NCBI GenBank assembly: GCA_002794785.1
Contig: NBBA01000004.1
Span: forward strand, 1,426,001-1,490,000
DNA length: 64,000 bases
Source: Coniferiporia sulphurascens
Lineage: Eukaryota; Basidiomycota; Agaricomycetes; Hymenochaetales; Hymenochaetaceae
Reading direction: 5' to 3'
Position 1 is the first letter of the stretch, and each line of letters opens with the position of its first letter. Position numbers and translations under genes: made by a program. Shown here piece after piece: positions 45,507 through 47,729 of this stretch. The notes below the pieces were generated by a model. That model was not told where the DNA came from and searched no databases. It saw only the letters and a program-made list of their open reading frames with translations.

Positions 45507-46344
45507 ATGTATAACTCGCACTATGGCTCCTCCTCGCCCGCGCAGTTCTCCAACAACCCTTTCGTTGACGACCCTTCAAACCCGAGTAATCGCTATCCGG
45601 ACATCAATGCGATAGACCGTTCAACCGGGTACGCCCCGTCTGCAGCTTCGTATGCGGCACAGTCGCAGATGGGCTTCAGTGCACCCGGTCCGGGCAATTA
45701 TGCCAATGGCTACGGAACTCCATCGGGTTTCGGGCAACAACAGCAGGGCGTCAGCTACCAGCAGCCGCAGTCCCCACAGTATACGCAACCGCAGGGTTTT
45801 GGTGGCGGATGGCAGCAGCAGCAGCAACAGGCCACAGGTGTCCCGTACGACGCGAGCGCATATGCAGGTGCGGGCACGGGGTATGGCGGGACGACGAGTC
45901 CGCAGCAAACGGGCATGTCCTACCAGAGCACATTTGGCACAGGACAGTACCCGCAACAGCAGGGCTTCGGGGGGTATCCCACGCCACAGTATGGATACCA
46001 GGGATATGCAGGCCAGCAGACCGGGTACAGTGCTCAGGCGCAACCCAGCGTATCCGAGTTCGACCCATTGGCTCGTCCACAGGTGAATGCCGCACGTTTA
46101 TGACACATAGCTCCGTGCTTACGGGAATTAAATGCGCCCGTCAGCAGCAAACTCCGTCAAATTCGTACACTGGCTCGAGCTCGTCTGGAAGCAACGTGGG
46201 GCCGAGCACACACCCACGCGATTACATCCGCTCGCACAAGCGTGGGCTCGAGACATGGGACAGTGTGAGCTGGAAGCAGGCCCTGAATGCGTTCGACGCT
46301 TTACGATCCGGGTGGGAGGCGCACCGTGGCCAGGTCCAACTTCG

Positions 46345-46347
<3 letters not shown>

Positions 46348-46382
<35 letters not shown>

Positions 46383-47369
46383 GCATTTATATACCGCTAC
46401 ATTACAGAGTAAAAGACGCGGATGTGAGGCCATATGAAGTGGAGTGTCAGAGGAGATTAACAAGGTATGAAGTTCCTGGTTTTCAGGCATTTAGGAGAAA
46501 GGTATGAGGTTGTGTTGTCGGAGGTTTTTTCTAAATGGTTTTGTCAGGGGGTATACATATCGGAAGAGCAAATTGTGAAGGGGGGGGTGGAGGTTTTATG
46601 GATTCTATGATGACTAATAGTGATTGTGAGAGATGAGAAAAACTACTGAATTTTTTATGTTGTGCATGTGGGCGTGATTTGAATTGTTTTATGTCCGATA
46701 TTTGTGATTCCGAGAGTTGTGTCGTAATAGCGTCTGGAGCGTCATGTGTGTGTGATTCACGAGGTGTGAAAGTGTCATCGTTTAAAACGGTAAGTGTACG
46801 TGAGGCTGGGGCGAGGTTGCCATGAGGTGTGGGGTGGAATGCGAATTGTATGAGAACTGATGTTAAGTCTGTGCTTGGGCCATAGTGGCTGAGGTGGTGT
46901 CGGTAGAGGAAGATGTGTCGTGAATTGTGTGGTTGATCAGTAATGCTGATGACCTGTAACTTGTACTGGCGTATAGCCCAGTCTAGTATGTGTTGGTTTT
47001 CTTTAACGAGGTTGAAAGGTTCATATGTGGTGTCGGATTCGAAGTTAGGCACAGGGAGGTGAAGGATTAGGAGGGGGCATGGGTAAATGGGTTGTGTTTT
47101 GGTCATCTCCCTAGGAGGAGGTTAAGTAGGTAGTGCGAGAGTGAGGTTTGATGTTTGAGGTTACGAGGCCCTATCGTCCTAAAAGCCCAACCGGTATCTG
47201 GGACGGCATATGTCTTTGTGACAACCACACCCTGTACTAAGTGGAGGAGGCGTGCTAGGCAAGCTGCTCTGCGTGTAATACAGCTGCGAGTTAACGCGTA
47301 GTGGGTCGACTAGGCAAGTGAACCGTGGGAAAACCCCGAGATGGTGGTGGTTCAAGGTCAAGGAGGGAT
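46348..47369 (-). mobile_element. Polyadenylated retroposon, about 1.02 kb, minus orientation
   Basis: GGTCCAACTTCGTCT occurs at 46333-46347 and again at 47370-47384, a perfect 15-bp target-site duplication. A run of 30 T at 46347-46376 is the poly(A) tail of an element lying on the minus strand. TATAAA lies about 10 nt before the tail on that strand. These are marks of LINE-type target-primed insertion. The sense strand is rich in C and A and poor in G, unlike its surroundings. It holds one ORF of 191 codons and about 260 nt of leader. No LTR and no reverse transcriptase are visible, so it used enzymes supplied in trans or is the end of a larger element. Confidence 0.88.
46531..47106 (-). 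CDS. Unrecognised 191-residue ORF inside the retroposon
   Basis: ATG at 47106, stop at 46531, no intron. The protein begins MTKTQPIYPCPLLILHLPVP, has a more ordered middle (about residues 30-95, with QHILDWAIRQYKLQVISI and RHIFLYRHHLSHYG), and a His/Ser/Pro-rich end. Codon use is heavily C-ending with few G, unlike host genes. It has no cysteine cluster, reverse transcriptase or RNase H motif. It could be an ORF of a non-autonomous element, the end of a LINE protein, a retroposed cellular mRNA or a piece of an RNA genome copied into DNA. I cannot assign it. Confidence 0.5.
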   Translation of the reverse strand: MTKTQPIYPCPLLILHLPVPNFESDTTYEPFNLVKENQHILDWAIRQYKLQVISITDQPHNSRHIFLYRHHLSHYGPSTDLTSVLIQFAFHPTPHGNLAPASRTLTVLNDDTFTPRESHTHDAPDAITTQLSESQISDIKQFKSRPHAQHKKFSSFSHLSQSLLVIIESIKPPPPPSQFALPICIPPDKTI

Positions 47370-47729
47370 GGTCCAACTTCGTCTGCAACAGGGTGCGTAC
47401 TATCTCGGTCCCGCCGAGGGCCAGCGACTTCAGGGCGTGAGTCCACCTTTTAATTTAACTTAATTTTCCTATTTAAAACTCACAATGACTTCGAATGTAG
47501 CTTCAAAGGGAAGCAGAACATAATATTGGTGAGCATTTATGACTGTTAACACCAACCCATTGTAGTACTAATTGCTCGTCTAGATTCTATAACGGCGTCG
47601 TCTGTCCAAATGCAGGAGGTCCTGCAAGGATACCGCCAATCCAGCGACCTTGCAAGTAAAAATCGCGTGCGGGAGTCTGTGAACGCCGCACTGCAGAGTC
47701 TGCCAGACTGGCCCCCCCAGAACTGGTAG

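Follow-up and report, generated by a model that had tools for sequence, protein, structure and literature searches.

The window analysed here is a 64,000-nucleotide stretch of contig NBBA01000004.1 of the fungus Coniferiporia sulphurascens, and the feature under study is a 1,022-bp insert that interrupts one of its genes. We consider it quite probable that this insert is a recent copy of a family of non-autonomous, modular retroposons that depend on a long interspersed nuclear element (LINE) and carry an orphan open reading frame (ORF) under weak to moderate purifying selection. Three modules were distinguished. The first is a 5' untranslated region (UTR) that would act as a carried promoter; it is a relative of the LINE 5' UTR in copies of type B, and the head of a further family, type C, together with its AUG, in copies of type A, to which the window's insert belongs. 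The second is the central orphan ORF of about 170–191 codons, and the third is a LINE 3' UTR with a poly(A) tail. RNA polymerase II would transcribe the element from the 5' module, the ORF2 protein of the LINE would recognise the shared 3' UTR and insert the RNA by target-primed reverse transcription, and co-packaged RNAs would swap 5' modules by template switching. The ORF probably undergoes translation, and purifying selection of weak to moderate strength probably maintains its protein. As the most economical guess, the protein would act in cis: the parasite RNA would be helped into LINE particles by being translated and by the product made from it.

An earlier note on this DNA had described a perfect 15-bp target-site duplication (TSD) around an insert of about 1.02 kb, a poly(A) tail of 30 A, an ORF of 191 codons, a sense strand rich in C and A and poor in G, and a position within an exon whose frame is restored by excision. 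All of this was recovered except the tail length: the two TSD copies (GGTCCAACTTCGTCT) are identical, the tail on the sense strand has 29 A, the sense strand comprises A.31, C.33, G.13 and T.24 in a window of even composition, and the flanks joined with one TSD remain open where the protein of Coniferiporia weirii is continuous. The insert's own genome (39.3 Mb, 31 contigs) was searched with the insert DNA, and 44 matches were obtained. Type A was represented by six near-complete copies at 96–100% identity (the window's own among them), type B by 30 matches covering only the 3' 744 nt of the insert, and type C by four places matching chiefly its 5' 276 nt. The insertion is not a chance arrangement, since each of the five other type A copies (96–99% identity) occupies a different site and has a different TSD. 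A search of the genome with the ORF protein (E ≤ 10) gave 72 rows that merged into 62 places, or 61 once a chance row (E 0.37) was removed; 54 of the 72 rows span the ORF, and 50 of those 54 have no stop in the matched stretch. Some of the approximately 61 places carry only pieces of the ORF.

From these places, 35 ORF copies (L009–L043) were fetched besides the window's. Divergent and truncated copies are under-represented in this set because the copies were picked as best DNA matches. Exact TSDs of 12–16 bp were present in 33 of 36 examined copies (32 of the 35 fetched, plus the window's), and the TSD of L038 measures 8 bp. All 35 fetched copies of types A and B start within about ten bases of their type's 5' end; one 5'-truncated ORF copy was seen outside the fetched set (C13:1307153). 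Mean divergence inside the five multi-copy subfamilies was 0.5–4.0%. At the level of sequence, then, the LINE-like 3' end, the 12–16 bp TSDs, the poly(A), the many copies and the mosaic junction described below are demonstrated. The TSD and the 3' A tail, which mark target-primed insertion, together with the LINE 3' end and the C. weirii site lacking the insert, agree with the young insertion by LINE machinery that had been proposed earlier.

Three further observations were made on the copies. In many type B copies (among L014–L043) the conserved sequence is separated from the TSD by several extra bases, for example CAAAAAC or CAGCAC; these may have been added without a template, or the true 5' end may vary. 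L037 and L041 (C22:264625 and C22:256393) are inverted type B copies 8 kb apart whose flanks match crosswise by eye, as suggests an inversion left by recombination between both copies. Matched pieces of the ORF lie approximately 300 to 700 bases apart at C5:102855-104485, C7:865025-865790 and C8:217999-219073, and these copies were perhaps split by further insertions.

The partner LINE was identified through the 3' end of the insert, of which positions S848-1022 (175 nt) match the 3' end of the copy L048 at 90.3%, the next best hit having an E of 0.84 (blastn). L048 is a LINE with an ORF1 (302 amino acids from its ATG were compared), an ORF2 of 1,315 amino acids and a 3' UTR; a TSD can be seen by eye in its sequence. 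Its ORF2 contains endonuclease, reverse transcriptase (RT) and RNase H domains (Pfam), with RNase H below the cut-off (19.7 vs 25.8 bits), and relatives of the LINE ORF2 were found in C. weirii at 49% (protein database). Among LINE ORF1 rows at 86–100% (n = 29), 26 have open frames of 808–893 codons, so L048, with 342 codons, is read as 5'-truncated. The numbers of candidates scored were 40 of 120 for the insert's tail, 40 of 104 for the type B head, 40 of 104 for the LINE 5' UTR, 40 of 124 for the LINE 3' UTR, 150 of 1,034 for RT and 130 of 595 for LINE ORF1. Of the scored tail matches, 30 lie beside the ORF, nine at 1,663–1,758 bp downstream of a same-strand RT and one beside neither.

The LINE 5' UTR was found by chance within L012, as approximately 195 nt ahead of a presumed ORF1 ATG. 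All 40 scored places lie upstream of a same-strand ORF1 (36 at 1,439–1,475 bp and four at 2,017–3,153 bp). This UTR matched the heads of type B at 74–78% over 198–231 columns in each of the six copies tried, with the firmest agreement over the first ~125 nt; in the window's type A copy it matched over 26 nt only, near the start of the head. Because both of its ends match LINE UTRs, type B was described as a LINE-type 5' UTR, the ORF and a LINE 3' UTR. A 5'-truncated LINE, one of the options raised previously for the insert, was rejected: only the last 175 nt match L048, and sister copies carry both the LINE 5' UTR and the LINE 3' UTR. A consensus fold of the shared tail gave 22 pairs, two of them with a change on both sides, and a covariation term of +0.27; a conserved stem-loop is unsupported in this tail. 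The LINE ORF1 rows form at least two groups, at 86–92% and 71–85% to L048, plus remote groups at 27–48%. At L015, L016 and L022, type B copies have LINEs of more distant families as neighbours, with ORF2 pieces at 24–37% to that of L048.

The head of type A has another source. All 16 candidates returned by a search with this head were scored, giving six type A copies, four type C copies and six partial rows. Type C (L044–L047) has the same 5' head as type A, a different body and a short LINE-like 3' tail. It is a third retroposon family of ~1.05 kb, represented by four rather diverged copies, and its shifting ORF starts with MVKP or MVKS. When the junction is aligned, type A agrees with type C up to and including the ATG and, with less clarity, over about four further codons, and from there on with type B; past the ATG, MTKTQ in type A stands against MVKPR in L046, with 7 of 12 bases in common by eye. 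Since type A tracks first C and then B, it looks like an in-frame joining of the type C start to the type B ORF, and its in-frame AUG, which comes after one out-of-frame AUG at S161, is taken from the C head. Template switching is a likely route to this mosaic by analogy with Magnaporthe, where, according to extracts of the published account, LINE template switching makes chimeric retrogenes (PMC2104539). The earlier reading of the insert did not include this apparent mosaic, in which an orphan ORF stands between the 5' head taken from a third family and the 3' end of a LINE.

The coding claim is carried by codon-level tests and not by the length of the frame, which is weak evidence because stops are rare in G-poor sequence (an equally long frame arose in 33 of 2,000 Markov-simulated strands). 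Selection was tested on 36 copies in six subfamilies, whose 15 pairs are mutually non-independent. Comparisons with subfamily 4 were stopped at codon 160 because of a poly-C frameshift (in the pairwise ratios of nonsynonymous to synonymous rates, dN/dS, and in the context-null pairwise and singleton tests), and the null models handled context only through base and CpG. Between subfamily consensuses, dN/dS by plain Nei-Gojobori was 0.28–0.47 for 14 of the 15 pairs and 0.85 for the remaining pair; in the other two frames the 30 values lay around 1, three of them above 1.4. Under the base/CpG-context null, omega was 0.41–0.65 in 14 pairs and 1.09 in one, with p ≤.05 in 11 of the 15.

Changes were also counted on a parsimony tree. 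Over all branches of A and B together, 200 of 327 were nonsynonymous against 227.0 expected, and stops numbered 3 against 14.1 expected; on internal branches the corresponding values were 116 of 194 against 135.8, and 1 against 6.9. For type B alone, internal branches gave 74 of 128 nonsynonymous against 88.3 expected (p.003) and one stop against 5.1 (p.032). The depletion persisted when stop-making draws were excluded (B internal, 73 of 127 against 87.0 expected, p.004), and under that exclusion both halves of the ORF leaned the same way on internal branches (p.0125–.052). Frames +1 and +2 showed no depletion of nonsynonymous changes (omega 0.98–1.43), and changes at codon positions 1, 2 and 3 were uneven (100, 84 and 143 of 327, p.0002). 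The frame-specific signal is clear, and in our judgement the ORF is likely to be coding; we are less sure of a function for its amino acids.

No relative of the ORF was found. Its alignment gave no match at E ≤ 10 among 7,996 candidates scored from 5.8 billion proteins; the same database does contain fungal LINE proteins. Small ORFs in repeats are often left unannotated. Pfam gave no match at its cut-offs and, at E ≤ 10, one weak match (E 0.081) in one of eight members, and no relative was found in PDB or IMG/VR. These results agree, within the databases searched, with the earlier statement that the ORF belongs to no known family. Of the options put forward at that time, an undescribed non-autonomous element with a protein fits the LINE 3' end, the ~61 places and the frame-specific constraint. 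A lone retroposed mRNA was rejected in view of the ~61 places in several subfamilies; as for a processed pseudogene, the own-genome protein search gave no host source gene, and the places fall into subfamilies. In the literature searched, judged mostly without full texts, no earlier account of a family with this orphan ORF was recognised.

Membership of established classes was considered as well. The 3' tail in common with a partner LINE is a trait of short interspersed nuclear elements (SINEs). A classical SINE transcribed by RNA polymerase III was rejected: Rfam gave no match in the window at the gathering score (a sub-threshold match in the insert, E 0.12, resembles a small nucleolar RNA), no transfer RNA was found in the window, and a scan of the initial 400 nt of one type A and one type B copy, with up to one mismatch allowed, found no A or B box. 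Internal T runs of up to 5 occur in the A and B copies checked. As in RIME elements, the 3' end comes from the partner LINE. At the 5' end, the six type B copies tried match the LINE, and the window's type A does so only for ~26 nt. In place of a plain non-coding central deletion there is a constrained ORF unmatched in the LINE parts compared. The ORF1 protein of the LINE, which a HAL1-like element would encode, was not found in the own-genome search with the ORF or in a comparison covering 302 amino acids of ORF1.

Several observations weigh against a LINE-dependent family with a selected protein. The constraint is modest (omega 0.6–0.7 under a composition-matched null vs 0.3–0.4 by Nei-Gojobori), four dN/dS values in the control frames were low (0.40–0.66), and subfamily pair 6-5 showed no constraint. 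Within subfamilies omega was 0.74, 0.55, 0.74 and 1.26, with only the second significant. The contrast between source and dead copies is not significant: the ratio of nonsynonymous to synonymous changes was 116:78 for internal branches and 84:49 for terminal ones (Fisher p.57, or.39 for B by itself), and terminal omega was 0.78 for A and B together and 0.84 for B (p.09–.24), or 0.69 (p.02–.05) under the stop-excluding null. The 92 singleton changes gave an omega of 0.65 (56 nonsynonymous vs 64.9 expected), similar to that of older changes. This depletion is unexpected because inserted copies should drift freely if dead. Either a somewhat biased null or a contribution of source lineages to the terminal changes would account for it; a general bias is disfavoured because frames +1 and +2 give a terminal omega of 0.98–1.04. 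Moreover, several copies have stops or frameshifts, structure prediction gave no usable fold for the ORF (predicted local distance difference test score 36), and it is shared sequence that suggests the pairing of LINE and insert.

The start codons of type B belong to the same side of the balance. None of the five B subfamily consensuses has an in-frame AUG in the head or the first 30 codons, and the first AUG of type B opens an out-of-frame frame of 19 codons (length by eye). Type B is nonetheless commoner than type A and includes the least diverged subfamilies. An in-frame AUG occurs at about codon 74 in B subfamilies 2 and 3, and an in-frame AUU with A at -3 lies six codons ahead of the conserved part in all five B consensuses. 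Non-AUG initiation in type B is therefore no more than our proposal, to be entertained if the whole frame is translated. In subfamily 4 (L021, L024) a 7-nt insertion lies just upstream of the conserved AUU, and poly-C slippage has produced a frameshift near the ORF end; any start upstream of the AUU would be out of frame there because of this insertion.

The most serious alternative, which we hold to be possible though doubtful, accepts a LINE-derived, non-autonomous element and denies its ORF a function as a protein. Selection would then keep only the RNA translatable, either because ribosomes are where LINE proteins pick up RNAs or because RNAs that escape translation are broken down. Stops are indeed more depleted (3 vs 14.1 expected, A and B) than amino-acid changes (200 vs 227), type B is without an AUG start, and neither relatives nor a fold were found for the ORF; likewise, the depletion among singletons equals that among older changes, which protein constraint on source copies alone does not predict. 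However, amino-acid changes remain depleted after stop-making draws are excluded, and five of six subfamily consensuses reach the same C-terminus despite their different lengths, the sixth being shifted at the poly-C. It is also only tentatively, and with the odds against it, that we extend the preferred reading of a LINE-dependent family with a selected ORF to its fullest form: a parasite with a gene of its own, whose LINE ends would serve as promoter and RT site, whose selected orphan protein, in most copies translated without an AUG, would aid it in competing for the machinery of the LINE, and whose 5' modules and start codon would be swapped between parasite families by template switching.

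It is improbable that the ORF is a fast-evolving relic of LINE ORF1 and the family an internally deleted, HAL1-like LINE. Both UTRs of type B are related to those of the LINE, and ~260–300 codons in the middle of LINE ORF1 were outside the comparison, but none of the 72 ORF rows (E ≤ 10) lies on a recognisable LINE locus although at least 52 near-full-length ORF1 rows (77–100%) are present. Furthermore, hhalign of the ORF alignment vs the 302 amino acids of ORF1 gave a best E of 0.35 over 16 columns, and blastn vs L048 found the tail with the next best at E 0.84. A LINE-ORF1 origin of the ORF is thus weakened. Slightly more remote is the capture of the ORF from a host mRNA by template switching, to be carried now as dead cargo; the chimeric retrogenes of Magnaporthe, as described in extracts of PMC2104539, offer a precedent, whereas the own-genome protein search found no host-gene relative (best row outside element copies 29% over 52 amino acids, E 0.37) and the constraint is frame-specific across subfamilies. 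An origin as DNA copied from an RNA virus or from another replicon of cytoplasmic RNA, raised previously, hardly deserves credence despite the C-rich, G-poor sense strand, as the LINE has the same C/A-rich, G-poor bias (A.30, C.29, G.13, T.28), neither IMG/VR nor the protein database yielded a relative of the ORF, and the element has LINE UTRs and ~61 genomic places.

The insert lies antisense within exon 2 of the host gene, its sense strand being the minus strand of the window (Table 1). The exon is uninterrupted once the flanks are joined with a single TSD; the insert plus one TSD amounts to 1,037 bp, which is not a multiple of 3. Translation of the occupied allele yields nine phenylalanines out of the poly-T, then a stop. 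In the homologue of Coniferiporia weirii (Hymenochaetales), M0805_002379 (332 amino acids, 89% identical), QVQLRLQQGAYYLG is continuous across the site, without the insert. The host gene was therefore broken by an insertion that is absent from C. weirii.

Table 1. Positions in the window of the parts of the type A insert and of the interrupted host gene
Feature	Position	Strand	Basis
TSD, left copy	46333..46347		direct comparison
TSD, right copy, identical to left	47370..47384		direct comparison
Whole insert, 1,022 bp	46348..47369	- (sense)	bounded by TSDs
Poly(A) tail, 29 A on sense strand	46348..46376	-	direct reading
3' UTR common to autonomous LINE	46377..46522	-	90.3% to L048, 176 aligned columns including A tail
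Orphan ORF, 191 codons, ATG and stop	46531..47106	-	ORF listing, genome copies, codon-level tests
Mosaic junction, ~5 codons into ORF	47091..47094	-	upstream side matches type C, downstream side type B
5' head, 276 nt, common to type C (L044–L047, 89–91%)	47094..47369	-	alignment; supplies in-frame AUG
Host gene exon 1	45507..46082	+	translated gene model; protein 89% to C. weirii M0805_002379
Host gene exon 2, portion preceding insertion	46145..46347	+	gene model and C. weirii homologue
Host gene exon 2, portion following insertion	47385..47436	+	splice end placed by eye against C. weirii protein
Host gene exon 3	47501..47528	+	LQREAEHNI in C. weirii protein; placed by eye
Host gene last exon, through stop codon	47584..47729	+	placed by eye against C. 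weirii protein

Of the non-autonomous LINE partners compared here, some do not code for protein, and the others retain a protein of the LINE or encode a short peptide. If a selected orphan ORF has truly replaced the coding part of a LINE, retrotransposon parasites evolve genes of their own, and in type A such an ORF would have been caught acquiring its AUG through a mosaic join to a different element. The question is directly testable because one 39-Mb genome contains both many nearly identical copies and partner LINEs whose open frames are long. Judged by sequence, the family uses LINE ends as SINEs and RIME do, and it is set apart from RIME by its ORF and by 5' exchange.

The known systems are compared here from extracts of the published accounts. 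RIME of Trypanosoma brucei (ingi/RIME) is described as non-coding and as an ingi element that has lost its centre; like the present family, it is a short partner that shares its two ends with an autonomous retroposon, has TSDs and ends in an A-rich stretch, and it is probably moved by the proteins of that retroposon (PMC2323293). Type B differs in having an unrelated, apparently selected ORF in place of the LINE centre, and type A has another 5' end. Sadhu of Arabidopsis is similar in its size of ~0.9 kb, its poly(A), its TSD of 7–16 bp and its lack of polymerase III motifs, but is described as non-coding without conserved ORFs, and the source of its enzyme is unclear in that account (PMC2848041). 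The WEIRD/MGL/Mg-SINE retrogenes of Magnaporthe are likewise fungal mosaics made by LINE template switching, with direct repeats; they comprise 33 bipartite chimeras and one tripartite chimera, with no comparable ORF mentioned in the extracts (PMC2104539). HAL1 (half-L1) is, in the portion of the source used, a non-autonomous LINE derivative that encodes one protein, but it keeps the LINE's own ORF1 (PMC5753468), and the ORF described here is unrelated to the part of ORF1 examined. Eg-R1 of Blumeria graminis, compared by description only, is also fungal and non-autonomous, without A/B boxes and with inferred polymerase II transcription; its family is alike in the 5' region, and the frame that encodes its peptide, ROPIP1, has no canonical start codon (PMC6022598). 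In contrast to the present family, Eg-R1 insertions are reported to be without genomic poly(A) stretches, the passages used mention no LINE sharing both UTRs, and the peptide has 74 amino acids.

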